Source: Bacteroidales bacterium (GTDB taxonomy: Bacteria; Bacteroidota; Bacteroidia; Bacteroidales; ML635J-15). From it: a DNA stretch of 42,893 bases. The notes under the pieces are model-generated. The model was not told where the DNA came from. It did not search any database and saw only the letters and a program-made list of their open reading frames with translations. The DNA lies in contig JAQIBY010000037.1 of assembly GCA_027858835.1 (NCBI GenBank), forward strand, positions 1 through 42,893, read 5' to 3'. The translations under genes were made by a program, and so were the position numbers. This document shows, one piece after another, positions 20,459-42,888 of this stretch. Every line of letters begins with the position of its first letter. The stretch's first letter is position 1.

Positions 20459-23400
20459 ATGTTCTTGAAAACAGTAAAATTTAGCCTGATTTTTTTGCTT
20501 ATACTACCTAAGTTGGCGTATCCTTATACAGTTAAAGATACAATTGTAAATGTTACACAAGATGCTATAATTAGATCATCCTCTCCTTATACTAATTATG
20601 GGGATTCTGATTATATTTTAGCTACTTGTACTCCACTATTAAGAATTAGTTCTATTCAACGTAGTCTGGTAAATATTGACTTGTCAAATATTCCATCAAA
20701 TGCTATAATATTAAGTGCAAGCCTAAATTTGAAAGGAGCGACACATTCTGGTATTGGTTTAAGTCTGCTTACGATGAGAGTAACTGAGACATGGGATGAA
20801 AACACAGTAACATGGAATAATCAACCCTCTACTACAGTTAGTGGTTATATAACTAATCCTTCACCAGATGACCCAAATGCTGATTGCGAGATTGATATAA
20901 CAGCATTTGCCAAAGGATGGCATACGGGGCAGTATACGAATTATGGGCTAATGCTGAGACTTTATTTTGAATACCCAACAAAACAATTGCAATACTATTC
21001 ATCTGATTATTCAAATGCAACAAAACATCCTACAATAACAATAAAATATGTTATTCCTGAAACGATAAATATAATGCCAATAGAAGATATTGTTGTTGCT
21101 TCTTTATACCCAGATTCGGTTTTTTTATCTACTAAACAATATATTGATTTAATTGCATGGACTGAGGGTGGGCAGGTTAATATTCGGAGATCGTTAATGA
21201 AATTTAATTTGGACACCTTACCAGAAGATGTCTCCCTGCTTTCTTCAAAATTACATACTTTTTGGAATGGGTTTTCTTGGGCAATTCATTCAGGAGATAA
21301 TAAAAGTCATATATATCCGATAAATACCTCATGGAGTCAAGATACAATAAAATGGAATAACCAGCCAACTTATATAACAACACCAAATGCCATCATCCCT
21401 GCAACTACGAGTAGCACCCAAACGAATTTTGAATTTGATATTTTTGAGATTATTAATTCATGGTATCTAGGTGATAATGAGAATAACGGAATAATAATGA
21501 AACTAGATACAGAATCAATTTACAGAAAAATCTGTTTTGCTTCTAAAGAACATACCGATGTTTCAAAACGACCTTTTCTAACATTAGGTTATATCCCTAA
21601 ATTACTGGTTGATTATAATTATTCATTGCCTCAGTATGATGAAGCTACTGACATTGAAGTTGAACCTATTGGAGGAATAAGTCCCTATAGTTATTACTGG
21701 TCTCATTTAGACTCCGTTGTAACAGATTCAACAATAGAAATTTTTTCAGGAACATATAAGTTAACTGTAGTCGATTTTTTTGATAGTACGTTCGTGAAAG
21801 ATGTTAATGTTTTTCAACATGTTAATTGGAATATACTTGACAGCATACAATTTTCAAATGGAGAATTAACTACCCTTATTTCATCAAATAATTGGGGAGC
21901 TAGAGCTTTGGCAAAGCATAGTATTGAAATTAATGACGACGGACTTATAAAACATGTTTTAGATACCTCTGCTATTCAATCTTCAGGAAAATATATTGTT
22001 GGATTTCAAAAGACGAAACAATTGCCAAATTATTTTTCAATTAATTATGGATTTCTCGTTAGTAAAGATAATGTACAAGTAATTGAAAACGGAAATTTAT
22101 TTAGTTCAGTTAGTTACAATCAAAACGATGTTATCTACATTGAAAGGAAAGACGGTCATATTAATTATTACCAGAATGATTCTCTTATTTATACAAGTTT
22201 TAGTGATTTTCAAAATAAACTTCACATTGTTTTGGCATCAAATTCACCATCATGTAGCATAAGCGATATATATACTACCGGACGTTACGATATTGCACAG
22301 AGTATAAGATTTATTGCTAATGATTACCTTAATGGGGAATTCAAGATAGATTTTTATTCACCTGAAAACATGTCTTTCTTGTGGGATGATAATTCTACAG
22401 ATAGTTACTGTTTTATTGATAAGGGAATAAGAAATCTAGTGTTATCAGATTCACTTTCACGTGTTATTAATTATAGCTTAAGATGGGGAAATGTTCTTTT
22501 TTTATCTGATGCAATACATTTTATGAATGATAGTACATTTGGTTTGTATGAATCGAATTTTATTCTTTCTGAGAATGAGGTTGATACAGAGCTGTCTTTA
22601 CTAGCTTACCCTGTATTGTCAGTTGACAAACCTGATGTTGAACAGTATAAATACTTGGGTTTATGTCCGAATGGTTCTGAGACATTTGCAGCAGGTTTTA
22701 AATTTGGGAATGATTCTATTTTCACTATAGCAAATTTAGTTGAGACTTATATTGGCAGTTATAATAGTATATCATTTATCCAAATGCAATGTGTTGAGGA
22801 TAGTGTCAAGCTATATATGGATAATACATTATTGGGAACTTATGCTTTAACTCCGGAACAGGAATACCATTATGGTGTGTTTTCAACCGATCATGTTCGA
22901 TTTACAGATTTGTTTACAACTAATTGCTCAAGCAAGATTGAGGTAGATTACAATCTAACACCAACCAGTGATGACAATTATCAACTTGATGTTTTAACAT
23001 TTGGAGGAGTTTATCCTTTTAATTATTTATGGGAAAATAGCAGTACAGCTATTTCTAGAAGCTCAATATCCCAAGGGTACTATTCACTTACTGTTTCTGA
23101 TATAATAGGAAATATTGCCAATAGCGATTACTTCATTTGTGACACAGTGCAATTTTATAATATTGAGAATGCAAATGTATCTGAAAATGGAGTTGTTTCT
23201 GTTCCAAGTTCAGATGATTGGTCGTGTAAAGCACTAAGTTTTAATAAGCTTACCAGAGGGGAAAATGGACTAGTGGAATGGAAAATTCAAAACGATTTTT
23301 ATAACCAATCTGAAAACACTGAAGTTTTTGTTGGTTTATGTGATGGTGACTTTAATACTTATGCTGACCTTTCTCATGCTTTTTATTATGATTCTGGACA

Positions 23401-26400
23401 GTTGAGTATTTATGAGCATGGTGACTTTAAAACACAAGTAGGAAGTGCCTCATTATCTGATGTATATGCAATTAAAATAAAGGGTAATAATGTTCACTAT
23501 CTAAAAAACGATTCTTTGTGTTATTCAAGCACTTTGGGAGATCAAAACAATCATCGATTAGGGGTTAACATAAAAACCGAAATCCATTTCATTGAAGATC
23601 TTTATGTTAGTTTTTCTGACGATGGTCTTGAACCTGTTTACTTAAGACCTATCTCATTCAACAATAACCGTTTGTCAATACGTGCCTATAATGAAAATGA
23701 CACTACACTAAGTCAAATTATGTGGAGTAATGGAATGAATGGCATTGATAATGATTTAATGCTTAGCAAGCTTTATTCTTATCAAATAAAGGATAGTTTA
23801 AATCGAAAAACAGATGATAAAACTATTGTATCTGAATTGAATTGGGATGTCTTAGACTATCTGAATCAAAATGATTCTGCTATAATTGCAACTGTAGGAA
23901 ATTGGAATGCATTTGCATATTCGGAAAAATCAGTAATGAATGAAGTAACTGGATTTGTAGCATATCCAATTTCAGATTTAGATTATTTAGCAAATAATTC
24001 AGGATCAAGAATATTTGGCTTTTCTGATGAACAAAACACTTCATACAACTCCATTGAACATGGATTTTTACTTTACAATCAGAAATACAGCATCTATGAG
24101 TCTGGAGTTCAAAAAACTGCAGAACAAACTATTGTTCCTGGTGATCTCTTGTCTATTCAAAAAGTTGAAGATAGCATTTTTTATACCTTGAATGGGACTA
24201 TTGTGTATTCAACACTTGCTATTGAAAACGCTCAATATCCGGTTGTTCGCCTTGAGGATGCGTCAAGCAGTTTTGGGAATCTATTGTCTGACCTGAGAAC
24301 TCCATTGAAAATAGTTGCATCAAAATTTGCGGAAGATTCTATTTCCCTTGATGTTTCAGGAGGAGTTAAGCCGTATCAATTCACTTTAGATAATGAAACT
24401 GTAAATACAAGTCTTTTTGCAGACTTTGATAATTCAAATCATCTATTTCAAGTTGTCGATTATTTTGGCGACACTGCATCTTATAACTTTACTTCTTTAA
24501 GTATTCCTTACTGGCATTTAACGCAGGATATGATAATGGGTGATGGTTATTTCGTTCGAAATGATAGCACAGTGGCTAAAGGTCAATCATATTCATACAA
24601 TTTACTTAAATTTGAAAATGATGGTGCTATAATTAAGCCGACAAATGACATTAGTGCTAATACGAGATCTTTTGGGCTAACAAATTCAAATGATTCAGAC
24701 TCTATTCCTGATTTTAAAGTTAGCTATGAAAATGGTTTAGTACGCTATTATGAGAATAATTCGCTGACAAAAACAATTTCGTTTCAAAATATTGGGACCG
24801 ATTCTTATTTGACAATGAAGAAAGTGGAGGATGATTTAATTGTAAGTCTGAATGATTCTGTTTTACTGTCAAGATCAAATGTAATTACTTCTGACTTAAT
24901 TTCGATTATAGAAGTTAATGAGCTTGGTGATACAGCATATTTTCCGTATTGTACTTTTTCTCCTTTACCGCTTACATGCACTGTTGATGCAACTACACCA
25001 GGTGAAACTGGAAATGTTTCAATCAGCAATATAATTAATGGAGTTCCTCCTTATCACATCGAATGGCAAAATGGTGACACTGTCGATTATTTAAATAATG
25101 TTTCACCAGGTGTTTATCCGTTTACTATTACAGATGCCAGTGGTTATGAATTAGATACCATTGCAACATTTGTGAATTATTGTGCTTTCATCCTTTTTGG
25201 AGATTGCTCTTATAAAGGCAATGGGGTTATAAAAGACCAAAGTTTTTCGGTTAACGATTATGCAATTTCTTCCTCCTATATTCCGGCCAATAATTCTGCT
25301 GTTTTTGAGATTGAAGAAATGGACGGTGAATATACACTTCACAGTAAAATTTTTGGTTTCTCAGAAAAACAAACTGATCCACAAATACAGGATTATTGTT
25401 TTGGAGTACATGTTGATAGAGGTAATTTGTATTTCATTGCTAATGGACAAAAAATCCCAGCAACACAGAAATTTGAAAAAGGTGATATTATAAAGCTTTA
25501 TGCGCTTGACAATCGTTTTGTCATAAGATTAAATGATGAAGCTATTTTTGAGCAAAACCGAAACCCGGAAAAAGATGTTTTCTTTGTCACCCATTTATAT
25601 GAGTCTTTTGGTCTTTTATCACCGGTGCTTTCAAGTACGGTGAATAATAATCAAGCGATTAAGCATGCAAGTCCTCGATTTACAGGAAAGAGCTTAGTCA
25701 TTGAACCTACTTGCGCTAACATTATTGATAGTGGTAATAAGTTTGCTACAATAAATGCATCGAATGAGATTACATGGCAGAAGAATAATGGGGAGGTCTT
25801 AAGGACATTATTAAATTATAATGTTGATTTATTACCTAAAGATGTGGAAATTGCTTCTGCAAGGCTTTTATTATCACCAACCGGTTCATCTTTTGGCGTA
25901 AACAACAGTGTCATTGTTGCTTGTTCGGATGATTGGCATACTGATAGTGTGAATTGGGATAATGTGCCTAAAACTAATAAAGATTATTTAATAGATATAG
26001 CGCAAACCGATTCTGTCAATGAGGCATATGCTATTGATGTCAGTAAACTTGTAAAAGCATGGTATTCCAATGAAATACAGAATCATGGTGCTTTGTGTCG
26101 TTTAGCGGATGAATACATTGATGGAGGTATGTCATTTTCCGGAGGCGATTCTGTTGTTTATAATTCTCAGCCACGGTTGGAGATCTTTTATTATGAACCA
26201 TTGAAATTGGAAACACAATCAATCAAGCTGAAAGATACCTATGCTTTTTCGGCAAAGCCAACTAATATTCATGGGGATAATAAGGAGCTGGTTCTAAATG
26301 GCGGAGATATAGCACGAGTTTACATTCACTTGCCAATTGAAGATATCCCATTTAATGCAAATATTGATTCTGCGAGTTTAGTGCTTCATGTTGGAAATTA

Positions 26401-29400
26401 TACAACTCCAAATGCATCTTCTGCTTATTTAGTAAAAGACAACTGGAGTGAAGATAGTTTAACGTGGAATAATCAACCCGATTATTATGCTAAATATAGT
26501 AATATTGCTTTAGGAACTATTTCTACAAATGACAGCATTGTTATTGATATTGCAAAACTCATTCCTTTATGGAAAAGTGGCATAGTTGAAAATAATGGCA
26601 TAATGATCAAACTTGATGACGAAGCAAATGGAGAAAATGTTGTATTTATGAGTTCTGAAAGTAATGACAGCACAAAACACCCCAAAATGCATTTGCAGTA
26701 CTCAATTGAGCCTTTGGATCTTTATGTCAAAGATTTAACCGGTGAAAATGACAGTTTAGCCAGTGTTAGGCTTATTGCAACTGGTGGTGTTCCTCCTTAT
26801 GAGATGACTGTTAATTCATTGAAAAATGGCGCTGATGCTAGTTTTTACAATGAAGAGTTCTCAAATAAAAACATTCGCATTGCAGATGCTTGGGGAAATG
26901 TGTTAAATAGAAACATTAACTTGCAACAACATCAGGATCTTGACTTATCCTCTTCTACTCCAAATTCAGGATGGAACTGGTATCAATCAAGCGTTTTTAA
27001 CAAAGACGAGGTTAATGGTACACTTGTTACAAGTAAGGTTGGAGAGTCACGAATTTATTTTGATTCTTTTGGAAGAACACATCAAGCACAATCACGATCT
27101 TTTGAAGATGACAATATTTTGTGTCAACAAGTTATATATGACAAAAGAGGTAGAAATTCAATACAAAGTCTCCCTGCTCCTGTAAATGATAATAGTTTCG
27201 ATTACAGAAATAATTTTATGACTAGTAATGGAGCTGCCTTTGATGAAGAAACACCAAATCTTAGTCCGGAACAGAGAAAAGTAGACAATAATTCGTTACT
27301 CGGGGCTTATTACAGCAATAATAATAGTGATGAATTATATGTTCCTGCAACGGATTACCCATATTATCAGGTGAAATATAATGAAATATTAGGGTCTATA
27401 CCTGATAAAACAAGTATGGCTGGTGATAATCTTTACATGGGAAGTGGAAATGAAAACAAGTCATATCCTATGTTTATACGTTCTAATGAATTGTTTCACA
27501 TTACAGGGGCTCAGGGTTTCCTTATTAATGAAAATTATCATGTCTTTGAGGAAGAGCTTGATGTGGAAAATCCTGTGAATTTCCTTTATGAAAAAGGAAT
27601 GATGAAGGTGCTTTCAGAAGATGCTGATGGGAAACAGTTTGTTTCCTATGCAATAGGAGGGAAGAAAGTTGCTAGTGCAAAGGTTGCGCAAGGTGAAAAA
27701 GCCGGGAATTATCAACGCACTGTTTTTTCGAGAATGGCACCATTTCAATCCTATATTGACATACATATTTCTGAAGGTGTTGTTGATGATGGAATTAGCA
27801 TTCAAGCAAACTTTGAAACAGATATGAAGATTTATTCTGTTTCAAGTGGCGAGCTTGTTTGGGCGACGGAAAATACAAATGAGTATTTCTATAGCATTAA
27901 TGATAATCAAATAGAGGACGTAGTGATAAATGGAGAAGATTGTGAGTTAAGCATTCAACAATCAGATAGTCCAGTTGATTTATTAATTGAGGCCCCATCA
28001 GGTTGTGATTTATATCGTGCCATTCAAATTAGTGGACTACCTGAAGGTGTATATCGCATATATCGCTCTAATCCCTATTACTTGTCTCAAATAATTAATA
28101 TCGAATATATGATTGATTATTATAATTATAATTTATCATATTACGACAAAACCGGAAAACTAAGTAAGACAATTTATCCGGAAGGTGTGCAAACATTACC
28201 GGAAGAGAACGGATTTACTACCACTATTCATTCTTCCTCTGCAATAATACAGTCTATTGAACCCGATGCAGACCCAGAAGATGATGAAAGTATTCCTTTC
28301 GTACCTCATTTTACTTCTGCAAATCAAGACGAGAATGGCGCTTATCAAAACATAATCAGCATTCCTGTTGAACATGATGAAAATAGCCTTGATTATGGAA
28401 AGATTTCCGTGAGAATGTACAAAACGGATCAGATTATTGTTGTGGATGATTTGGCTCAGCATTTTGCGTGTGTTGCTGAAACCAATGATGGTCTTATCTT
28501 GAGAAATATAGCCATGGCTGGGAATGTTAATTCCAGTAAATCAGTAGAGAATATTTCACCATATGTTTTTGGTAGTTTATTTTTAATCAATGATACTTGC
28601 CTGAAACCTGTAGTTGATATTGATGGGTATGTTTATAGTTTGGATTCATCAACAAACTATGGTGCATGGCATAGCAACAATGCGCTTATTTCTGGCTTAC
28701 AAGAAGTTGATTTTAATACTCCGGTTGTGTACGCAGACCAATATTCAAATATAAGTGATTTAGAAATTATTGATCTAAATACCATTAACTATAATCAGAA
28801 TTTTGCTTTAAATACTAGTAACGCAATGACTGTTTTAAGAAATGGAGTAAGTTCAGATAAATACACTGAAGTCATTACACTTAGACCTGGTGAGGAGATT
28901 ATACTTGATTGGGATGATGACTTTGTGGATCATGAACTCCCACCATTGCCGACTGTGAGTAATAATGTTAAACTCGATTTTGTTGTTTATGGAGTTGTTG
29001 AATCTTCAGGAGGCGGAACAAGTCGTTTTGTGATTGATGATGAGTTTACTTATACTATGTATGTGCGAGGAGACAATACTTTAGTAACCGATGGTTTTTA
29101 TTTTGATTTTAATGCACCTGATGTTGTGCACAGAGGTGAATTAGAAATTCCAGCAGATGTTTATGAAAACATAGTTGAAATTCAATTAGAGCTTAAAGAA
29201 ATTCATTGTAATCAATCAAATGTTCCACCAAGTGGGCTTGCAACAGATGCGGTTTATTGCACTGATTATTACATTGGAAACTACTCTACCGGTGACTTGA
29301 GTTTGCCGTATAATGATTTTGTCGGTAGTCAAGATTATGACTATTACCAATTTGGAGGCTTAGACGATTATGAAATTGATGTTCGTTTAGAATATAATCA

Positions 29401-32400
29401 ATTGCAAAATGCACCTGAGCATACAATGTTTGATACTTACTCATACAACAACTGGGGGCAGCTATTGTCTAACACAACCGTTGATGTTGGAGAAACAAAT
29501 TACTTGTATCGTAAAGACGGCAAAACTCGCTTTATTCAAAATGCAAAACAAGCGGATGATAATACGTTCTCATACATCAATTACGATGATTTAGGACGCA
29601 TTATGGAAACAGGAGAGTATAACGAAGATGCTACCAATAACTTCGCTAACCTAAACAGTATTCTTGAAAATGTTATCCTTAATAATGATTTCTCAACTGA
29701 TCCATTAAATAATGCAAATTGTGAAGATCAAATTTATTTCAGGTATGATACCAGAGACCAAACGAGTACATTTGAAAGCGAAACAGGGCTTTCTGCAAGT
29801 AATTATCCGGTGAGCTTTACAGGAGGTCGCTTGTCTAAAACATGGACAGATAAATTAAGCAAATGGTTCTCATATGATGACTTTGGACGTTTGTCTTGGA
29901 TGGTGGTGCATTACAACGGAATGGGTCAAAGTACCATAGAGGGAACAAAAACCTACCATATGGATTATGACTTGTTGGGTAATCTGAAATGCATGACATA
30001 TCAGAAAAACAATGAAAATGAGCGATTCGATTACATGTATTCATACAATGCGAATATGCAATTGGTTTCTGTTACCATAAAGACCAATTATGTGTCAGGA
30101 ACCCCAAATCTTGTTCAGGAAGTTGCAAGTTATCAGTATTATCCTGATGGTAAGCTTAAACGTACTGTTATTGAAGAAGATTTACAAGGCATAGATTATG
30201 TTTACACCATTAATGGTTGGTTGAAATCCATCAACAATCCAAATTTGGGAATGGAATATGCCGGAAAATTGACTGACCCCGGGCAAGATGATATTATTGA
30301 CAATGGTATTTCTCAAGATGTCTTTGGAATGACGCTTGATTATTTTGATGGCGATTATAAACGTGAAGCTAATACTGCCGGAATTGGTGCAAGCTATATT
30401 AACTCTGGCGAAGGGCAGAATAATTACTCCGGACTTATTCGCTCACAACGTTGGAATACAGCAGGAGGGCCACAAAACAACCAATTGGCAAATGAACGTA
30501 CACATTGGATGTTCCAGTATAGTTACGATGAATTCAATCGCTTTATTGAGGCGGAGTTTGGGCAGTACACAACCAACATGCAAACCAATGGAACAAACGG
30601 ACAAAGTCCACACAATTTGGTTGACGATGTGCTCAGACAAATCTCCGATATTCAAGCTACCCCATCTGTAAATAATGGGAATGTATATTCTGGATTATTA
30701 ACACAAATTGCCGATGCAGGAAAAGACCTGAATTATTTTAACAATCATACTTCACAAAGCGGAAATACGACCACTAATTTTGAAAACTCAGAAAATTTTA
30801 CTTACTTTAATGCCAATGCAGCAATTGTTCAAAGCATGGTAGAAACAGGACATGACATATCCTTGCCACAAAGTCAGGCAAGTCTTACGTATGGTTATAC
30901 AAGTGATGTTGAGGAAAAATATCATGTGTACGATATAGCATATTCTGCCAATGGAAACATTACCCAGCTCAAACGAAATGGGAATTTGAGCGGTAGTGAT
31001 GTCTTTATGGACGATTTAAGCTATTATTATCTTTCCAACAGCAACCAATTGGATTATGTTAGCGATGCTGTTCCAACTGTCCGTTATGATTATGACATAG
31101 ACAACCAGAGCAGTGGTAATTTTGTTTATGATTCGATTGGTAGCATGATCGAAGATGCTGTGGACGGATTGTATCATGTAAAAGACTCTAGAGGGAAAAC
31201 AATGGAGTTAAGAGATGCACAATCGAATACTTTGCTCACAGAATACACTTACGATGAAAGCGGACGTTGCATTTGCATTTACGATGTTGATGCGAAACAA
31301 GCTACTTGGTTTGTACGAGGGCCCGGAGGAGAAATAATATCTGTATTTTCTGAACTTGAAGGGCAAATCTCAAAACATGAAGAACAGTATTTGTATGGAC
31401 TAGGGCGTATAGGGAAAGCATCCACAGATGAAAATCATACTGACATTGCATTACTGCAATACGAGTATCAAGATAACCTTGGCAATGTGCGAGCTGTTTT
31501 CCATAACAATGCAGGCGAGCCCGAATTACTTGCAATAAACGATTATTATCCCTTTGGTATGAAAATGCCTGATCGCTGTGTGAGTACCGGAAATTACGGA
31601 CATGCTTATCAGGGTGTTTTTGCGCAGGAAGATGCACAATACAGCCAATATAACCGTTTTCAGTTGCGTACTTACGACAACCGCCTCGGGCGTTTCCTTT
31701 CTCCCGACCCTTACGGGCAGTTTTACTCAGCCTATACCGGCATGGGCAACAACCCCGTAAATTTGGTTGATCCGAGTGGTGGGTATATTGTTCATTTCAC
31801 TTATACAAGTGAAGGTATAGAGATTAATGATTGGTATGAAATACTTAATTGGAGGCAAGAATGGGAAAGTCCTTTTGTTTTTGGACCCACCGGCGGTGGC
31901 GGAAATAGCGGTTCCACAGGTCCCGGATCTGGCAGCGGAGATGGATCAGGAGTTAGCAACCCTGACGGTAGTTTATCTGGACCTTCAACAGATGAAGGTG
32001 GTGAAGACTATGAACCTGAAGTTGTTATGCCAGGTGAGCCGGATGCGTATGAAACAGCTTTAATAAATGCATTAATTAAAGATCCAACCAATCAGGAGCT
32101 AATGAAGGAGTACGTTGCGGCTGCTGGGGATGATAATGGAAATAGCGGGGGTGTTGATGGTTTAGACAATATTTTGTTTGTCGTTGATATAGGTAAACAA
32201 GGTGGAGATAAAGCTGTTCAATACTTTCAAATGAGTAATGAAGACATATTAAGAATTGCTGTCAATAACGATATACCTACAGAAAGGATAAAAAACATAA
32301 TGAGGTCAACAGGGAAAGTTGGTACTTGCTTGAAAGTTGTTGGTGTTATTGGAAATGTTGCGAGTGCTGGACATACTGTTTATAAAATATCGCAAGATGG

Positions 32401-33130
32401 CATGTCTGTTCAGTATGGTGCTGACTTAGTTTTTAATATTATTGCTTTTGTGCCTCCATATGGTTGGGTAGTTTCAGGAATTTACTTTGGTGGAAAAGCT
32501 CTTGTAGAAAGTGATGGGTATAAAGCTAACCAGCAAGAATATCGTAAGAAATATCCAATAACAGGAGCACCTCCTTATATGATAGGACATTGTTTTGTGG
32601 AAGGAACTCAGGTTTTAATGAAGGACTTTTCGCTTTGTGACATCGAAAATATTGGAGTAGGTGACACTATTAAAACATTTAATTTCCGAATCTCGCAATT
32701 AGAAAATAATCGAGTGCTTAAAATTTCATCTCCAATACATAATAATTTAGTAACCATTAGATTTGCTAATGATATTAAGAATATTAATACTGAAGACCAC
32801 CCATATTATGTGAAAGGGAAAGGCTGGTGCTCATTTAAGCCGGAGCTAACTTTTCAAAGGTACGGTTTGGAAGCGTTGCAGCTAAAAGGTGGTGATATTT
32901 GTTATTACTATAAAGGCAGTGAACTATTGGAAATAAAGCTTGTTGAAATCATTTCTTTAGACATTGAAGTAAAAACATATAACCTTACTGAGATAGAGAA
33001 TAGTAATAATTATTTTGCAAATGGATTTTTAGTTCATAATGAGTATGGGAATTTGAAAAACACCACGAAAGTGCCCTTGAATAAGAATGGGCAAAGAATA
33101 ATGTTTAAACCATTGAAGTTAAAAGATTGA
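20459..33130 (+). CDS. Giant secreted RHS-family polymorphic toxin with DNRLRE, tandem lectin/SprB-like modules, RHS core and Hint domain
   Basis: 4223 residues. Signal peptide 1-23. Two DNRLRE-type domains (~25-198, ~200-380; VTETWDENTVTWNNQP, DTIKWNNQPTY) and two more at ~1736-1909 and ~1914-2084 flank six tandem ~220-residue modules starting near residues 457, 677, 896, 1127, 1350 and 1574. Each module pairs a lectin-like sandwich with a SprB-like strand pair (GGISPYSYYW, GGVYPFNYLW, NGVPPYHIEW). The RHS part follows: an N-terminal block (~2184-2240), YD repeats (~2990-3740) and the core NRLGRFLSPDPYGQFYSAY..NPVNLVDPSGG (~3740-3776). A Gly/Ser linker (~3809-3842), a hydrophobic pre-toxin segment (~3955-4025) and a Hint domain (C4044 in HCFVEGTQ, TEDH box, terminal FLVHN) come next. 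Only 29 residues follow. It probably acts at the surface in contact-dependent competition. Confidence 0.88.
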   Translation: MFLKTVKFSLIFLLILPKLAYPYTVKDTIVNVTQDAIIRSSSPYTNYGDSDYILATCTPLLRISSIQRSLVNIDLSNIPSNAIILSASLNLKGATHSGIGLSLLTMRVTETWDENTVTWNNQPSTTVSGYITNPSPDDPNADCEIDITAFAKGWHTGQYTNYGLMLRLYFEYPTKQLQYYSSDYSNATKHPTITIKYVIPETINIMPIEDIVVASLYPDSVFLSTKQYIDLIAWTEGGQVNIRRSLMKFNLDTLPEDVSLLSSKLHTFWNGFSWAIHSGDNKSHIYPINTSWSQDTIKWNNQPTYITTPNAIIPATTSSTQTNFEFDIFEIINSWYLGDNENNGIIMKLDTESIYRKICFASKEHTDVSKRPFLTLGYIPKLLVDYNYSLPQYDEATDIEVEPIGGISPYSYYWSHLDSVVTDSTIEIFSGTYKLTVVDFFDSTFVKDVNVFQHVNWNILDSIQFSNGELTTLISSNNWGARALAKHSIEINDDGLIKHVLDTSAIQSSGKYIVGFQKTKQLPNYFSINYGFLVSKDNVQVIENGNLFSSVSYNQNDVIYIERKDGHINYYQNDSLIYTSFSDFQNKLHIVLASNSPSCSISDIYTTGRYDIAQSIRFIANDYLNGEFKIDFYSPENMSFLWDDNSTDSYCFIDKGIRNLVLSDSLSRVINYSLRWGNVLFLSDAIHFMNDSTFGLYESNFILSENEVDTELSLLAYPVLSVDKPDVEQYKYLGLCPNGSETFAAGFKFGNDSIFTIANLVETYIGSYNSISFIQMQCVEDSVKLYMDNTLLGTYALTPEQEYHYGVFSTDHVRFTDLFTTNCSSKIEVDYNLTPTSDDNYQLDVLTFGGVYPFNYLWENSSTAISRSSISQGYYSLTVSDIIGNIANSDYFICDTVQFYNIENANVSENGVVSVPSSDDWSCKALSFNKLTRGENGLVEWKIQNDFYNQSENTEVFVGLCDGDFNTYADLSHAFYYDSGQLSIYEHGDFKTQVGSASLSDVYAIKIKGNNVHYLKNDSLCYSSTLGDQNNHRLGVNIKTEIHFIEDLYVSFSDDGLEPVYLRPISFNNNRLSIRAYNENDTTLSQIMWSNGMNGIDNDLMLSKLYSYQIKDSLNRKTDDKTIVSELNWDVLDYLNQNDSAIIATVGNWNAFAYSEKSVMNEVTGFVAYPISDLDYLANNSGSRIFGFSDEQNTSYNSIEHGFLLYNQKYSIYESGVQKTAEQTIVPGDLLSIQKVEDSIFYTLNGTIVYSTLAIENAQYPVVRLEDASSSFGNLLSDLRTPLKIVASKFAEDSISLDVSGGVKPYQFTLDNETVNTSLFADFDNSNHLFQVVDYFGDTASYNFTSLSIPYWHLTQDMIMGDGYFVRNDSTVAKGQSYSYNLLKFENDGAIIKPTNDISANTRSFGLTNSNDSDSIPDFKVSYENGLVRYYENNSLTKTISFQNIGTDSYLTMKKVEDDLIVSLNDSVLLSRSNVITSDLISIIEVNELGDTAYFPYCTFSPLPLTCTVDATTPGETGNVSISNIINGVPPYHIEWQNGDTVDYLNNVSPGVYPFTITDASGYELDTIATFVNYCAFILFGDCSYKGNGVIKDQSFSVNDYAISSSYIPANNSAVFEIEEMDGEYTLHSKIFGFSEKQTDPQIQDYCFGVHVDRGNLYFIANGQKIPATQKFEKGDIIKLYALDNRFVIRLNDEAIFEQNRNPEKDVFFVTHLYESFGLLSPVLSSTVNNNQAIKHASPRFTGKSLVIEPTCANIIDSGNKFATINASNEITWQKNNGEVLRTLLNYNVDLLPKDVEIASARLLLSPTGSSFGVNNSVIVACSDDWHTDSVNWDNVPKTNKDYLIDIAQTDSVNEAYAIDVSKLVKAWYSNEIQNHGALCRLADEYIDGGMSFSGGDSVVYNSQPRLEIFYYEPLKLETQSIKLKDTYAFSAKPTNIHGDNKELVLNGGDIARVYIHLPIEDIPFNANIDSASLVLHVGNYTTPNASSAYLVKDNWSEDSLTWNNQPDYYAKYSNIALGTISTNDSIVIDIAKLIPLWKSGIVENNGIMIKLDDEANGENVVFMSSESNDSTKHPKMHLQYSIEPLDLYVKDLTGENDSLASVRLIATGGVPPYEMTVNSLKNGADASFYNEEFSNKNIRIADAWGNVLNRNINLQQHQDLDLSSSTPNSGWNWYQSSVFNKDEVNGTLVTSKVGESRIYFDSFGRTHQAQSRSFEDDNILCQQVIYDKRGRNSIQSLPAPVNDNSFDYRNNFMTSNGAAFDEETPNLSPEQRKVDNNSLLGAYYSNNNSDELYVPATDYPYYQVKYNEILGSIPDKTSMAGDNLYMGSGNENKSYPMFIRSNELFHITGAQGFLINENYHVFEEELDVENPVNFLYEKGMMKVLSEDADGKQFVSYAIGGKKVASAKVAQGEKAGNYQRTVFSRMAPFQSYIDIHISEGVVDDGISIQANFETDMKIYSVSSGELVWATENTNEYFYSINDNQIEDVVINGEDCELSIQQSDSPVDLLIEAPSGCDLYRAIQISGLPEGVYRIYRSNPYYLSQIINIEYMIDYYNYNLSYYDKTGKLSKTIYPEGVQTLPEENGFTTTIHSSSAIIQSIEPDADPEDDESIPFVPHFTSANQDENGAYQNIISIPVEHDENSLDYGKISVRMYKTDQIIVVDDLAQHFACVAETNDGLILRNIAMAGNVNSSKSVENISPYVFGSLFLINDTCLKPVVDIDGYVYSLDSSTNYGAWHSNNALISGLQEVDFNTPVVYADQYSNISDLEIIDLNTINYNQNFALNTSNAMTVLRNGVSSDKYTEVITLRPGEEIILDWDDDFVDHELPPLPTVSNNVKLDFVVYGVVESSGGGTSRFVIDDEFTYTMYVRGDNTLVTDGFYFDFNAPDVVHRGELEIPADVYENIVEIQLELKEIHCNQSNVPPSGLATDAVYCTDYYIGNYSTGDLSLPYNDFVGSQDYDYYQFGGLDDYEIDVRLEYNQLQNAPEHTMFDTYSYNNWGQLLSNTTVDVGETNYLYRKDGKTRFIQNAKQADDNTFSYINYDDLGRIMETGEYNEDATNNFANLNSILENVILNNDFSTDPLNNANCEDQIYFRYDTRDQTSTFESETGLSASNYPVSFTGGRLSKTWTDKLSKWFSYDDFGRLSWMVVHYNGMGQSTIEGTKTYHMDYDLLGNLKCMTYQKNNENERFDYMYSYNANMQLVSVTIKTNYVSGTPNLVQEVASYQYYPDGKLKRTVIEEDLQGIDYVYTINGWLKSINNPNLGMEYAGKLTDPGQDDIIDNGISQDVFGMTLDYFDGDYKREANTAGIGASYINSGEGQNNYSGLIRSQRWNTAGGPQNNQLANERTHWMFQYSYDEFNRFIEAEFGQYTTNMQTNGTNGQSPHNLVDDVLRQISDIQATPSVNNGNVYSGLLTQIADAGKDLNYFNNHTSQSGNTTTNFENSENFTYFNANAAIVQSMVETGHDISLPQSQASLTYGYTSDVEEKYHVYDIAYSANGNITQLKRNGNLSGSDVFMDDLSYYYLSNSNQLDYVSDAVPTVRYDYDIDNQSSGNFVYDSIGSMIEDAVDGLYHVKDSRGKTMELRDAQSNTLLTEYTYDESGRCICIYDVDAKQATWFVRGPGGEIISVFSELEGQISKHEEQYLYGLGRIGKASTDENHTDIALLQYEYQDNLGNVRAVFHNNAGEPELLAINDYYPFGMKMPDRCVSTGNYGHAYQGVFAQEDAQYSQYNRFQLRTYDNRLGRFLSPDPYGQFYSAYTGMGNNPVNLVDPSGGYIVHFTYTSEGIEINDWYEILNWRQEWESPFVFGPTGGGGNSGSTGPGSGSGDGSGVSNPDGSLSGPSTDEGGEDYEPEVVMPGEPDAYETALINALIKDPTNQELMKEYVAAAGDDNGNSGGVDGLDNILFVVDIGKQGGDKAVQYFQMSNEDILRIAVNNDIPTERIKNIMRSTGKVGTCLKVVGVIGNVASAGHTVYKISQDGMSVQYGADLVFNIIAFVPPYGWVVSGIYFGGKALVESDGYKANQQEYRKKYPITGAPPYMIGHCFVEGTQVLMKDFSLCDIENIGVGDTIKTFNFRISQLENNRVLKISSPIHNNLVTIRFANDIKNINTEDHPYYVKGKGWCSFKPELTFQRYGLEALQLKGGDICYYYKGSELLEIKLVEIISLDIEVKTYNLTEIENSNNYFANGFLVHNEYGNLKNTTKVPLNKNGQRIMFKPLKLKD

Positions 33131-35302: not shown

Positions 35303-35954
35303 GATTGCACAAGTCACGTCTCAAAAATCATATCCTCGTTTTGGAGAAGGAGGAGGAACGCTTATTGATGTTGATTATATCGATATATTCATTGATTTTG
35401 GTCCAGGACCCACCGGCGGTGGCGGAAATAGCGGTTCCACAGGTCCCGGATGTGGCAGTGGAGGTGGATCTGGCTCACCAAACTCTGACAGCCATTTATC
35501 TGGACCTTCAACAGATGAAGGTGGTGAAGACTATGAACCTGAAGTTGTTATGCCTGGTGTGTCGGATGCGTATGGTACAGGTTCTGGGGATGATCCACCT
35601 AGAGAGCCACTAGTAAAAATTGATACTAACAAACTCAAAATAAAAATTGAAGATCAACTAATAAGTATTGACAATCGTGATAAATATACACGTCGCGCCT
35701 CTATTAACTTTCCAACACAAGTAGCTCAAGAGGCCAAAAGACGATATAAATTAGAAACTGGCAAAGAACTTAATATTAGGACGAAATCGTTGTCCGTAGA
35801 AATTCAAGTTCATGCAGCATTTTATATTTTAGAGATTCGAATAGAAAGTACGGAAGTCGCGGATTGTGGTGAAAAAGAGAAAGATGGCAACAGAATAATT
35901 TGGGATATAATAACGTGGGATATAATAACGATAATAGATATTAATAAAAAATGA
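35142..35954 (+). CDS. Orphan RHS tip 2 with unrecognised C-terminal domain
   Basis: 270 residues from GTG, with the same first ~52 residues as tip 1 and then a different end. The linker (GPGPTGGGGNSGSTGPG, then DEGGEDYEPEVVMPGVSDAYGTGSGDDPP, ~92-155) is close to that of the giant protein and marks the toxin junction. The unique C-terminal domain (~160-270) is charged and probably alpha/beta: KIDTNKLKIKIEDQLISI, a helix FPTQVAQEAKRRYKLETG, strands LSVEIQVHAAFYILEIRI and a repeated WDIITWDIITIID at the end. No catalytic signature was recognised. The stop overlaps the following LRR lipoprotein start (ATGA), so the pair is translationally coupled and reads as toxin and immunity. Confidence 0.75.
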   Translation: MFTTTTTYKAFNQRLIGRFLSPDPYGQFYSAYTGMGNNPVNLVDPSGGYVKHWRIAQVTSQKSYPRFGEGGGTLIDVDYIDIFIDFGPGPTGGGGNSGSTGPGCGSGGGSGSPNSDSHLSGPSTDEGGEDYEPEVVMPGVSDAYGTGSGDDPPREPLVKIDTNKLKIKIEDQLISIDNRDKYTRRASINFPTQVAQEAKRRYKLETGKELNIRTKSLSVEIQVHAAFYILEIRIESTEVADCGEKEKDGNRIIWDIITWDIITIIDINKK

Positions 35955-36748
35955 AGCGAATAATTATTTATTTTATTTTAAGCGCAATATGTTTCTCCTG
36001 TACATATCAAAATAAAGGAGAACTTGTGTTTAAAGACCGTCGATTAGTAAAAGCGATTGAAAATGCGTTGTCAAAGAAACTATCTTTAGCAACAGATGAA
36101 GAGCTTAAACTAATTACAGAAATATCATGCATGAGGTGTCAAAATCTAAGTGGTCTTGGTAAATTAGAATCATTGGAAAGTTTAAGTTTAACAAACTCAA
36201 GGAATTTGAATGGACTTGAAGAATTAAATAAACTAAGTAATCTTAAATCATTAAGTATACGAAATTGCAATGTTTCTGAAATTACATTTTTAAAAAGTCT
36301 AAATAAATTGGAGTATCTATACCTGACAGACAACAATATTTCGAATTTAGACCCTGTCACTAATTTGGAAAATTTAAAGGTTTTAGTTATTGATAATAAT
36401 AAAATTGAAAACATAACTGTTCTGCGCACACTTGAAAATCTTGAAAGAATTAATTTGCGTCGTAATAAAATAAAAAACATACCTAATCTGTCTAGTTGTA
36501 CTGAACTAAATAAGATAGATCTTGGTGGGAATCAGCTAACTGATAACACAAACTTCTTGCACTTGAGAAGTGTTGAAGAACTTATCTTATTTGACAATAA
36601 TATTACTAGCTTAGAATGGATTCATTATTTAGAGAATTTAAAATATATTAATATATGTGAAAATCCAATAAATTGTGATGTTTTAACTGTCGAGATGAAA
36701 AGGATGATTGAAAAAGATATTTTAATCACAGATTGTAAAAAATATTAA
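35951..36748 (+). CDS. Leucine-rich-repeat lipoprotein, candidate immunity protein of tip 2
   Basis: 265 residues. The signal sequence MKRIIIYFILSAICFSC ends at a probable lipobox cysteine (C17), so it would be anchored in a membrane facing the periplasm or surface. From ~65 to 245 there are about eight SDS22/internalin-like repeats of 21-22 residues: LESLESLSLTNSRNLNGLEEL, LNKLEYLYLTDNNISNLDPV, LENLKVLVIDNNKIENI, LENLERINLRRNKIKNI, VEELILFDNNITSLEWI. The end includes a C-x-n-C pair (INCDVLT..ITDCKKY) like an LRR cap. It overlaps tip 2 by 4 bases. An LRR solenoid is a plausible binding scaffold to neutralise the toxin; this is inferred from the coupling. Confidence 0.75.
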   Translation: MKRIIIYFILSAICFSCTYQNKGELVFKDRRLVKAIENALSKKLSLATDEELKLITEISCMRCQNLSGLGKLESLESLSLTNSRNLNGLEELNKLSNLKSLSIRNCNVSEITFLKSLNKLEYLYLTDNNISNLDPVTNLENLKVLVIDNNKIENITVLRTLENLERINLRRNKIKNIPNLSSCTELNKIDLGGNQLTDNTNFLHLRSVEELILFDNNITSLEWIHYLENLKYINICENPINCDVLTVEMKRMIEKDILITDCKKY

Positions 36749-37671: not shown

Positions 37672-38355
37672 ATGCAATCCGCAATGCACATAATAACATC
37701 CGTTGAGTTTCTAAGAACTATTGCAGGGTATGATGGTAGCACATCTGCTTCCTCACCCTCTGGTTCACGCCCAACAAATAATTCGGGCTCAACAAATGAA
37801 TATAGCTCGCCTTTGCATGTATGGGGTATTGGCACACCAAGAGAGATTGTGCTAGATGCGTATGGAACAGGTTCTGATGGTGAACCACCCACTATTAATG
37901 TTCTAAATGATGATTTTGAAAAAGTATTACAAGAGGAAACAAACTGGTGTGTATTTGCTGTTACAGAGATAATTTATAATGAGTTTGGAGCTCAAATAGA
38001 TCAAAGTGATATTGCAAACGATTTTTATAATAAAATAGGAGTTCCTGAAAACTCAAATTTACCTGTCCGTTCTTTGGAATTTATTAATGAGTATTTCCAA
38101 TCAGATGATAACTATTTTGTACGCGATTTTAAGGATATTGCAAAAGCTCTAAAACGAGGATATCCAATTTTGGCTTCAATTTGTGTTGAAAACTCTGACG
38201 TTGGCCATGCAATTTATATTTATGGCGTTGACAACTTAAACGGATCATACAAATTTCATTATTGGGATACTGGTTCAAAAGCATCATATACTATAAGTTC
38301 GTTTGATTTAGCAATTAAAATTCAATTTGCCTATGTTGTCAAAGATCCATTTTAA
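37672..38355 (+). CDS. Displaced RHS tip 3: papain-like cysteine protease toxin domain (C39/C70-like)
   Basis: 227 residues from ATG 37672; the start is uncertain because the gene lacks the conserved VDPSGG core and seems cut at its 5' side. Residues ~20-73 are a Ser/Gly/Pro linker ending DAYGTGSDGEPP, which matches the junction DAYGTGSGDDPP of tip 2 in protein and DNA. The domain from ~80 has ETNWCVFAVTEIIYNEFGAQIDQSDIANDFY with catalytic C93 and a Q-x-DIA element, GHAIYIYGVD with H179, and WDTGS with D199, the Cys-His-Asp layout of C39/AvrRpt2-like papain-fold proteases. It should cleave a target protein or peptide in a recipient cell if delivered. A lipoprotein gene overlaps its end and is the likely immunity gene. 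Confidence 0.72.
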   Translation: MQSAMHIITSVEFLRTIAGYDGSTSASSPSGSRPTNNSGSTNEYSSPLHVWGIGTPREIVLDAYGTGSDGEPPTINVLNDDFEKVLQEETNWCVFAVTEIIYNEFGAQIDQSDIANDFYNKIGVPENSNLPVRSLEFINEYFQSDDNYFVRDFKDIAKALKRGYPILASICVENSDVGHAIYIYGVDNLNGSYKFHYWDTGSKASYTISSFDLAIKIQFAYVVKDPF

Positions 38356-39233: not shown

Positions 39234-39371
39234 ATGGATTTACAGGAAAAGATATTTTCAGAAATTAATGCATGGCGCGAATCAGGCTTAACAAAGCATG
39301 TGTTTGTAGAGGACAAGGAATATACCCTTGCAAAATTCAATTATTGAATAGCAAAGCAGAGGGCTAAATGA
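39234..39371 (+). pseudogene. Remnant of an IS66-type TnpA accessory protein
   Basis: The frame reads MDLQEKIFSEINAWRESGL, then TKHVFVEDKEYTLAKFNY, then TGA (39345-39347), then IAKQRAK and a second TGA. The pattern I..W.ESGL.K..F........F.YW..K.R is that of IS66 TnpA; the first TGA replaces the expected TGG of FNYW. No TnpB, TnpC or inverted repeats are next to it, so this is a decayed insertion. The assignment rests on a short motif only. Confidence 0.5.
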
Positions 39372-39493: not shown

Positions 39494-40525
39494 CTATTGT
39501 TCCTTGTTAAACATTGGGAATTTAAGCCAGTCTATTGTATTATTAATAATTTCCCCACTTTCATTCATTTCATAAAATCTAGCAAAATCCCCTTTGAAAA
39601 TGTCATTAAATTTAAATATTCTAGTAGCATGTACAGGCTCCATAGTTGCTGAATTATAGCCATTTAAATCTAATCTTATTCTGTAATTTGTTAGTGCTTT
39701 AAGGTTTTGTAAAAATGTTTTCTCTTTAGCTGTTAATAATTCAAGCAATATTGATTTTTCGTTTGTTGTTACAATCGTTCCTTTTTTTATTAGTGCCTTT
39801 GGGTTGCTTATTTTATGTGTTAAATTCCAAGAAAGCCTAATTTCTGGTATTTCAACTTTTGATAATTTAAGTTCTGTCCATTCTCTCCCATAATAACCAT
39901 TTTCATCTTTGTAAATTTTTATTAAGTTTAATGTTAGTTTAACATTAATCATACTATTTGGACCAGTAAAGCCAATTTTGAATTTTATTTTAGTATCAAT
40001 TTTATTTAGCATGATTTTGTCATGTATAAGAATGCAATCCTTGGGTCCGCGGGATATTATTTTATCTTTTATGTCAAAATATGCATCTTGGAGAGCTATT
40101 TGTCTTTCTTTTAATGTTAATCTACTCTCTGTTGAAAAGTCAAATTTACAAGTATTAATACCCAGAAGATCTGATGGCAATTTTAGATCTGAATTATTTG
40201 GTATTATAGGGAAAACTCTTTTTTCTCCTAAATAACCTATGAGTAATCCTAATTCAAAAATAGTATTATCTCGTGGTGTATCGTAATTCTTATCTCTATG
40301 CCTTAACTTATCATCAGGGGTGAAAATTATTATTCCAAAGTCATAATTTTTTAAATTGTTCAATTGAGCAAATGTAGAGGCATAGTCAGTAGATTCAAAA
40401 TGTAGATTCCAAGTAACAATATCAATTTCATCTTTTGAAAAAAGCTTTGTCAATGCCTCGGTATAGCTTATCGATTCTATTGTTGAGCCGATGAATACTT
40501 TTGGTTTTCTGTATATCTTTTTCAT
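39494..40525 (-). CDS. TIR-domain protein (Cap12-like) fused to an inward-rectifier K+ channel (Kir/IRK) cytoplasmic-type domain
   Basis: 343 residues, no membrane segment. Residues ~8-110 are a Cap12/Pycsar-effector-type TIR domain: KPKVFIGSTIES, then VTWNLHFES, YDFGIIIFTPDD, and RDNTIFELGLLIGYLGEKRVFPI with the expected catalytic Glu at 91; such TIR domains hydrolyse NAD+. Residues ~180-340 align by eye with Kir C-terminal domains: ELKLSKVEIPEIRLSWNLTH (218-237), LDLNGYNSATMEPVHATRIF (285-304, compare GIDET..QTVHARTSY) and FNDIFKGDFARFYE (306-319, compare DIVWGARFADMF). There is no pore helix or TVGYG filter, so the Kir part is not a channel and may sense or bind a partner or ligand. It is last in a three-gene minus-strand operon, 78 bases after the 2TM gene. 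The TIR part is firm; the Kir part is moderately strong. Confidence 0.78.
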   Translation of the reverse strand: MKKIYRKPKVFIGSTIESISYTEALTKLFSKDEIDIVTWNLHFESTDYASTFAQLNNLKNYDFGIIIFTPDDKLRHRDKNYDTPRDNTIFELGLLIGYLGEKRVFPIIPNNSDLKLPSDLLGINTCKFDFSTESRLTLKERQIALQDAYFDIKDKIISRGPKDCILIHDKIMLNKIDTKIKFKIGFTGPNSMINVKLTLNLIKIYKDENGYYGREWTELKLSKVEIPEIRLSWNLTHKISNPKALIKKGTIVTTNEKSILLELLTAKEKTFLQNLKALTNYRIRLDLNGYNSATMEPVHATRIFKFNDIFKGDFARFYEMNESGEIINNTIDWLKFPMFNKEQ

Positions 40526-41707: not shown

Positions 41708-42523
41708 TTAAACAGTGAATTCTGAAAAGTTTACATCATCCAGAATCACATCTCTTTCTTGTGATTGATTCTCTGCAATTAGATAGTAATCTTCAGATTT
41801 TTCAAATTTTATACTGCGAAATTTAAAAAATGGATAGAATTTTTTGTCAAAATCCAGATTGATATCAAGACTATTGCTGGAATCTGTATTTAAACCAATT
41901 TTCGCCTCTGCCAAGTCGATTTCTTTTACTTCTGCAATGGCTTTGATTTTAGCAATGGTTTCCTCGTCCATGCTTGACTTTAGTGTGATTCCTTTTATCC
42001 ATATGCCGCGAGTGGCAACATAATTATCTCCATCAAGTATTTGTTGAATGCGGGGGTCGTTCTGATTTGCCATTTTAGTTAGGAAAACAGCGAGTTCTCC
42101 TTCTTCAATGTAATCCACACCCCAGCTTTTGATGTCAACGGTGACATTTCTGGCTTTTTTAATTAAAGTTTCAAGCTCTGCACTGATGTTGGTGATTTTT
42201 ATCGTTTCCAGAATATTTGCAAGTACATTCAAATCTGTGTTTTGTGCAACATCCAATTCAAAGCTGGTTGATGCTTTGGCAGAATCATTTAGTATTCTTG
42301 GAAAGTTGGCGTATTTTTTATCCAGACTTTCGTGTGTAAAGACCAGATTTCGGTCGGAGAAATTCCCGAAAAAATTCTTGTCCATATCATAAATTGATCC
42401 AACAGGAATGCTGTTGGCCATCGACATAAACATGCCGTTTTTCCTAGAAATGTTTGTGCCAAAAAATGCGATGTCTTTAATATCCCACCACATTCTTCTT
42501 ACTTGTCTTTTTACTTTGCTCAT
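41708..42523 (-). CDS. Unknown protein, first gene of the TIR operon
   Basis: 271 residues, no signal peptide or TM. It begins with a basic segment (MSKVKRQVRRMWWDIKD), then FFGTNISRKNGMFMSMANSIPVGSIYDMD, an alpha/beta region with FELDVAQNTDLNVLANILETIKITNISAEL and VTVDIKSWGVDYIEEGELAVFLTKMAN, and ends with strands FYPFFKFRSIKFEKSEDYYLIAENQ and VILDDVNFSEFTV. I recognise no family. The spacing of 27 bases to the next gene's first ATG indicates one transcript. It is probably the sensor or regulator of the operon, judging only from position and lack of known effector domains. Confidence 0.65.
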   Translation of the reverse strand: MSKVKRQVRRMWWDIKDIAFFGTNISRKNGMFMSMANSIPVGSIYDMDKNFFGNFSDRNLVFTHESLDKKYANFPRILNDSAKASTSFELDVAQNTDLNVLANILETIKITNISAELETLIKKARNVTVDIKSWGVDYIEEGELAVFLTKMANQNDPRIQQILDGDNYVATRGIWIKGITLKSSMDEETIAKIKAIAEVKEIDLAEAKIGLNTDSSNSLDINLDFDKKFYPFFKFRSIKFEKSEDYYLIAENQSQERDVILDDVNFSEFTV

Positions 42524-42830: not shown

Positions 42831-42888
42831 AGGGCTAAAGCCCTATTCTATTATTTCGATTCAGAACCCCGACATAAATGCCGGGGTT
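42831..42888. repeat. REP-like palindrome pair
   Basis: AGGGCTAAAGCCCT (42831-42844) is a perfect palindrome of the same type as GGGCTTTAGCCC at 11190-11201, and AACCCCGACAT/ATGCCGGGGTT arms (42865-42875 and 42878-42888) form a second hairpin with one mismatch. The cluster may continue beyond the window. Confidence 0.6.

Follow-up and report, generated by a model that had tools for sequence, protein, structure and literature searches.

What might switch a TIR effector that carries, in the position of a sensor, the cytoplasmic domain of a Kir channel but none of the channel itself? This question is raised by an intact ORF, referred to here as TIR-Kir, in a window of 42,893 nt that takes up the whole of contig C129, in a genome that is 3.6 Mb in size and 99.07% complete. 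The two domains of this protein, its active-site residues, the missing pore and the order of the surrounding genes are direct observations, and their positions are compiled in the table below. TIR-Kir, represented by one instance, combines a TIR effector with a control domain that is new.

Features of the TIR-Kir locus, with positions in the window and the evidence for each
Feature	Position	Strand	Evidence
TIR-Kir ORF, 343 aa	39494..40525	-	intact; ATG at 40525, stop ending at 39494
Cap12-class TIR domain, residues 9-129	40139..40501	-	PF10137; same span in genome profile search
Predicted active site, R85-D86-N87 to catalytic E91	40253..40273	-	alignment with SfSTING and invariance
D119, counterpart of SfSTING D110	40169..40171	-	SfSTING alignment and invariance
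KirBac cytoplasmic-domain homology, residues 160-283	39677..40048	-	profile, shuffle and reciprocal searches
Last residues (284-343), where the Kir domain may end, uncertain alignment	39497..39676	-	
2TM SLATT-like protein, 359 aa	40604..41683	-	hydropathy; SLATT_1 match below cut-off
Weakly gasdermin-like protein, 271 aa, first gene of the putative operon	41708..42523	-	bGSDM models

The initial annotation had assigned the N-terminal part of the protein to the Cap12-type TIR domains with E91 as the catalytic Glu, and this assignment is borne out by the profile score, by the alignment with SfSTING and by residue invariance. Specifically, Pfam PF10137 matches residues 9-129 with 87.2 bits (cut-off 24.7, E 1.1e-24), and a profile search of the 99.07% complete genome returned the TIR-Kir ORF as the sole PF10137 match, with no other. 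PADLOC TIR effector models also match (best E 9.3e-36), the N-terminal half finds PDB chains of TIR-STING and PycTIR by phmmer, and the PHROGs match of the TIR is to an unnamed family. In the alignment with SfSTING, in which the offset of the SfSTING residue numbering was fixed via E84, residues R78, N80, E84 and D110 of SfSTING align with R85, N87, E91 and D119 of TIR-Kir, and SfSTING S10 aligns with T15. A separate TIR alignment has 23 rows, TIR-Kir included, and every row carries R85, D86, N87, E91 and D119. According to the accessible text of PMC9402430, E84 is the catalytic residue of SfSTING and D110 crosses over from the dimer mate to complete the active site of the partner subunit, so that NADase activity depends on the packing of the TIR domains. 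An AlphaFold2 model built from TIR rows has block means of 74-92 over residues 11-160, with the exception of residues 41-50 (51), and its best Foldseek match is the TIR-STING structure 9lmq (E 3.1e-9). The TIR domain is a predicted NADase of the Cap12 class.

No pore precedes the C-terminal half, as the initial annotation had also held. The most hydrophobic 19-residue stretch of TIR-Kir has a Kyte-Doolittle mean of just 1.00, from which we conclude that the protein lacks a transmembrane segment, and the T-x-G-Y/F-G filter motif that is present in 8 KirBac relatives is absent from its sequence. In Kir channels the cytoplasmic domain begins directly behind the second pore helix, and the sequences of the KirBac relatives follow this rule. 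In TIR-Kir, the last TIR helix spans residues 138-159 in the model and the similarity to KirBacs starts from residue ~160. The TIR domain therefore occupies the place of the pore.

The evidence for the Kir-like domain comes mainly from profile comparisons. When the C-terminal 184 aa were searched against 395 genomes of the phylum, 9 genomes matched, namely its own and 8 others, and all 8 non-self matches are pore-bearing KirBacs, their filter reading TVGYG or TVGFG. Reciprocally, a profile of 8 KirBac cytoplasmic domains had the TIR-Kir ORF as its sole match in the TIR-Kir genome (E 1.0e-10). Comparison of the C-terminal half with a KirBac alignment (A2) by hhalign gave a probability of 96.7 and an E of 4.6e-10 for a single comparison, and a cytoplasmic profile of 20 KirBacs gave 45.0 bits, the best of 5,000 shuffles reaching 9.7. 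This 20-KirBac profile holds 18 distinct domains (L049 repeats L003, and L057 repeats L009), and the other high rows of the test are due to its background set, in which copies of TIR-Kir and an overlapping copy of L037, a KirBac, were present as well. The hhalign, 20-KirBac and reciprocal scores are inflated, because the 8 KirBacs of A2, two of which are from one genus and nearly alike, had been found by their similarity to TIR-Kir. As a control, we therefore took 4 plasmid-encoded KirBacs (Caballeronia and Synechocystis) that were found through KirBac L003 and not through TIR-Kir, two of them being nearly identical. The control profile gave 23.4 bits in HMMER (best of 10,000 shuffles 10.7), and a single control KirBac gave 15.1 bits (best of 10,000 shuffles 9.4) in an alignment starting at residue 161; hhalign with the same 4 KirBacs was weak (probability 13.3, E 0.0021).

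The similarity is unevenly spread over the C-terminal half. Against the Kir profile, residues 160-250 score 28.6 bits and residues 251-283 score 8.5 bits, with none of 5,000 shuffles as good in either case, and residues 279-343 likewise score 8.5 bits, with 1 of 5,000 shuffles as good. The last two segments compete for identical positions of the profile, which therefore indicates an insertion, a repeat or a mis-alignment at the end of the domain. Since the scores of the 4-KirBac control and of the other profiles far exceed those of the shuffles, we regard residues ~160-283, as judged from sequence, as truly homologous to Kir cytoplasmic domains; the support for the distal third (279-343) is marginal and its alignment insecure. 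Accordingly, the Kir landmarks that the initial annotation had seen in the expected order stand, by profiles and shuffles, for the part up to residue ~283, and only marginally for the second block (GYN..T..PVHA / F.DI, within 279-343), where the score is the 8.5 bits given above. The Pfam model IRK_C (PF17655), to which the same annotation had pointed, went unreported at a limit of E 10, in a HMMER search whose filters drop most matches above ~0.1; two KirBacs in the same search scored 60.6 and 76.0 bits. A phmmer search of the PDB found KirBac3.1 (E 0.018 and 0.0092), a match that is not decisive because casein kinase II scores close to it (0.063 and 0.029). The triad that forms the subunit contact of KirBac3.1, given as E173/D175/H177 in the accessible text of PMC3879539, reads N194/K196/T198 in the alignment with TIR-Kir, and the known KirBac3.1 contact is therefore not kept.

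Structure prediction was less conclusive than the profiles. In the AlphaFold2 model built from TIR rows, nearly all of the C-terminal half has a pLDDT below 50, so that this model is no independent proof of a Kir fold. Foldseek places KirBac3.1 at rank 24 for it (E 2.2e-3), and the source of this match may be the amino-acid term. A model of the C-terminal part built with Kir rows is of low confidence (mean pLDDT 47.8). For the latter model, which is biased by its own alignment, KirBac3.1 leads the Foldseek matches (E 5.2e-7), and VIA-align 2 gives a Z of 7.7 for Kir and of 7.3 for Asf1 and HAP2 domain 3. The near-duplicate rows L053, L058 and L061 had been excluded from the structure alignments. 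The answer on the Kir fold proposed at the outset is thus mixed: the sequence and profile tests speak for a Kir domain and KirBac leads in Foldseek, but the model confidence is low (47.8) and unrelated Ig-like folds come out almost level.

The initial annotation had proposed a search for further proteins of the TIR-IRK_C architecture; no second one emerged from 395 phylum, 395 class, 247 order and 61 related genomes (overlapping sets), nor from plasmids, phages and viral contigs. Full-length TIR-Kir gave 36 rows in the 395 class genomes, comprising itself, 28 TIR-only rows and 7 C-terminal-only rows. No non-self row covers both domains, the furthest TIR row reaching residue 190 in a stop-bearing stretch (L033). 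Four of the 7 C-terminal-only rows correspond to genomes whose KirBacs were read, with G555, G488 and G551 left out. The plasmids and phages were searched with the C-terminal half and the viral contigs with both this half and the full protein, in each case without a TIR-Kir relative, and by eye none of 23 viral TIR relatives (C-terminal parts up to 200 aa) has the architecture. An exact-peptide scan of genome_contigs with the C-terminal half, which is insensitive to distant relatives, found no relative; a degenerate-pattern scan, also of low sensitivity to distant relatives, returned 131 matched stretches that reduce to 12 loci, all 12 of them pore-bearing KirBacs and none a TIR-Kir. No TIR-Kir fusion appears in the titles or abstract openings of the literature searched; subscription papers lay outside this search, and a prior mention is possible.

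Among the TIR relatives, a viral contig encodes a Cap12-class TIR (L077:3001-3369) whose C-terminal half, ~157 aa long and perhaps beta-rich, is of another kind; this is possibly another sensor swap. The best TIR match in the class by E-value after TIR-Kir itself is a 495-aa frame of genome G697 (L012) with a long unassigned C-terminal half. The TIR stretches at L013, L028, L032 and L033 have internal stop codons and are apparently decayed genes.

The genes next to TIR-Kir, which the initial annotation had passed over, are relevant to its mechanism. On the minus strand, the gasdermin-like gene is followed by the 2TM SLATT-like gene and, as the last of the three, by TIR-Kir, with gaps of 24 and 78 bases respectively. 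Such short same-strand gaps suggest a single putative three-gene operon, co-transcription being read from the spacing. Only 370 bases of contig precede the first gene, and a further gene of the operon could therefore be missing. Among the ORFs scanned elsewhere in the window, no known defence system was identified.

The middle gene encodes a protein with hydrophobic segments at residues ~92-123 and 128-152 (Kyte-Doolittle) and a long charged, coiled-coil-like tail. Its match to SLATT_1 (NF033634; E 0.003, 17.5 bits) is below the cut-off of 41. In 296 phylum genomes its relatives amounted to itself and 2 weak partial matches (L084 and L085); L085 has a stop inside the match and sits in a seemingly unrelated two-gene pair. 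TIR genes that adjoin SLATT genes, or share one system with them, are described in the accessible parts of PMC9503650 and PMC7159879. The first gene encodes a protein without a hydrophobic segment and without cysteine, which matches the PADLOC bGSDM model (E 2.1e-6) and the NCBIfam gasdermin model NF051890 (E 3.7e-5; 23.6 bits, below the cut-off of 100). It has a homologue in genome G262 (L047:7939-8796; E 1.3e-26) that opens with a signal-peptide-like stretch and matches no gasdermin model. AbiE and Gabija genes lie near this homologue, and the family of the gasdermin-like protein therefore does occur in a defence island. The gasdermin model rang in 3 of 80 class genomes, the TIR-Kir genome included, never above the cut-off, and no similarity was found between the gasdermin-like protein and a divergent bGSDM-like protein of genome G403. 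A confident gasdermin label was rejected because the score is below the cut-off and the G262 homologue has no gasdermin match. Neither neighbour has relatives in the viral contigs or plasmids, and below E 0.01 there is no PHROGs match to either.

On the other strand, the window encodes a 4223-aa ORF (20459-33127) in which four stretches are CBM96 and matches to AXH and DUF6443 occur once each. Behind it come smaller ORFs, among them one for an LRR protein (35951-36748) and one for a C39-like peptidase (37672-38355). Together, the long ORF and the smaller ones have the look of a cassette region attached to a large surface protein. T9SS sorting domains and plug domains also occur among the proteins of the window, and they would fit a Bacteroidota origin. 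At 39234-39347 on the plus strand, a remnant reads MDLQEKIFSEINAWRESGLTKHVFVEDKEYTLAKFNY before a stop, and we take it to resemble the small ORF of IS66-type transposons. Close to the contig end lies a palindrome, AGGGCTAAAGCCCT (42831-42844), which may belong to a genome-wide repeat at which the assembly broke off.

The reading that we favour, with a confidence slightly better than even, is that TIR-Kir acts as a cytosolic abortive-infection NADase of the Cap12 kind, in which a pore-less Kir domain controls assembly instead of STING. As stated in the accessible text of PMC9402430, cleavage of NAD+ by Cap12 requires packing of the TIR domains, with an Asp of one subunit completing the next active site. 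This trans-acting Asp is retained in TIR-Kir as D119. In channels, the Kir domain is a four-fold assembling and gating module. The cyclic-dinucleotide sensor STING would have been replaced in TIR-Kir by such a cytoplasmic domain, which would bind an infection-linked ligand or partner and thereby hold the TIRs in their active packing or release them from it. Control would most likely take place at the membrane, with the 2TM protein encoded in the putative operon as the link, and the outcome would be loss of NAD+ and abortive infection. The NADase activity, oligomeric state, sensing role, membrane partner and anti-phage function that this assigns to TIR-Kir are what we infer from the locus. Of the initial interpretation, which is thus partly supported, the gating of the NADase by a ligand or ion state is likewise a putative feature. 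Points that speak for it are the TIR family and residues, the Foldseek match to TIR-STING, the Kir homology and the start of the Kir-like domain at residue ~160 after the last TIR helix, together with the absence from the genome of a SMODS match and of any other PF10137 or KirBac-profile match, and the tight gene order with a 2TM SLATT-like protein, given the TIR-SLATT neighbourhoods already described. Against it stand the single instance, the low-confidence Kir models, the loss of the KirBac3.1 triad and the finding of no known defence system among the ORFs scanned elsewhere in the window.

The same gene order would accommodate other divisions of labour. The TIR might make a cyclic ADP-ribose-type messenger that opens the 2TM protein, the Kir domain being the sensor that activates the TIR; the gasdermin-like protein would perhaps also be opened, and death would result from membrane damage. 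We regard this as the main rival and consider it unlikely, albeit with a real chance of being right. It is in line with the 2TM SLATT-like gene adjoining TIR-Kir and with the prediction, in the accessible parts of PMC9503650 and PMC7159879, that SLATT proteins are membrane effectors controlled by ADP-ribose derivatives and encoded beside TIR genes. However, the SLATT match is far below its cut-off (17.5 bits vs 41), the gasdermin match is weak and finds no echo in the G262 homologue, and the studied Cap12-class TIRs are known to deplete NAD+ rather than to signal (accessible text of PMC9402430). If the Kir-derived domain were a passive scaffold for tetramer formation or docking, the 2TM protein or the gasdermin-like one would sense the trigger. 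The putative operon does encode these two additional proteins, and in the tetramers that Kir cytoplasmic domains build, gating is governed by the interface between subunits (accessible text of PMC3879539), but with the KirBac3.1 triad lost, and with a pure scaffold expected to keep the TIR constantly assembled unless held off, we find this arrangement rather improbable. We also give little credence to a split channel-like switch, in which the 2TM protein would form a ring with a TIR-Kir tetramer docked beneath it. In a Kir channel, the 2TM pore sits on top of the gating domain in the cytoplasm; in TIR-Kir this gating domain would have been cut from its pore and joined to a predicted NADase, with a separate 2TM protein adjoining, and the docking would mimic the position of a Kir domain under its own pore. 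A phage-caused change of membrane potential, ion level or lipid state would then turn the ring, and the turned ring would align the four TIRs into active NADases.

Two further explanations concern the nature of the domain itself. Residues 160-343 could be a generic immunoglobulin-like sandwich whose likeness to Kir arose by convergence, as the silence of IRK_C at E 10, the Z of 7.3 for HAP2 domain 3 and Asf1 beside 7.7 for Kir, and the phmmer value of casein kinase II (0.029) near that of KirBac3.1 (0.0092) would allow. This is very improbable given that all 8 non-self matches and all 12 pattern-scan loci are KirBac channels, that the profile scores far exceed those of the shuffles and that the reciprocal genome search finds TIR-Kir alone (E 1e-10). 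A role of TIR-Kir as the partner and regulator of a K+ channel in its own cell is scarcely credible. Kir cytoplasmic domains do assemble together in channels, but up to E 1 the KirBac profile matches nothing besides TIR-Kir in the genome (99.07% complete); a search of this genome with PF17655 was likewise without a match, with controls that were equally silent. Since TIR-Kir lacks a pore and no other Kir was found in the genome, we rejected its identification as a K+ channel or a regulator of one.

The known switches of bacterial TIR NADases are cyclic-nucleotide sensors or phage proteins. A Kir domain in the place of STING, as in our favoured reading, would extend the triggers of TIRs to lipids, nucleotides, ions and partner proteins, and a Kir domain outside a channel would be an allosteric module that is portable without the pore. 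If the split switch were true, the gating mechanics of an ion channel would have been reused for switching an enzyme.

Several known systems can be compared with this locus. The bacterial gasdermins (bGSDM) are matched by the first gene of the putative operon only weakly and below the curated cut-off, and this operon has no protease gene; the nearest protease-like ORF found is C39-like and lies at 37672-38355 on the strand opposite to the operon. As in TIR-SLATT neighbourhoods, a TIR gene adjoins a 2TM gene whose product has a coiled-coil-like tail, but here the 2TM protein is sub-threshold for SLATT and the TIR is fused to a Kir-like domain. The Pycsar effector PycTIR (8jsj) has a TIR of the same Pfam family as TIR-Kir (phmmer E 1.6e-11). 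PycTIR bears a cyclic-nucleotide-binding domain ahead of its TIR, which has no counterpart in TIR-Kir. With Cap12 TIR-STING (SfSTING; 7un8, 9lmq), TIR-Kir has in common the PF10137 class, the catalytic Glu, the positions of R and N, the Asp that acts in trans and the layout of a TIR first and a sensor second; the two proteins are also of about equal length. The difference is that a Kir-like domain is carried instead of STING: the NCBIfam Cap12 models NF050172 and NF050171 give 91.6 and 77.9 bits (vs 450) and cover just residues 7-155 and 9-143, from which it follows that TIR-Kir has no STING domain. A SMODS (PF18144) cyclase of the CBASS type was found nowhere in the genome up to E 0.01, in a search whose controls rang in 4 of 14 genomes. 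An identity as CBASS Cap12 was therefore rejected for lack of both the STING domain and the SMODS cyclase. KirBac3.1 (4lp8/2wlj) and the other KirBacs, finally, have a cytoplasmic domain that is homologous to residues ~160-283 of TIR-Kir; where these channels have a pore with its selectivity filter, TIR-Kir has a TIR domain.
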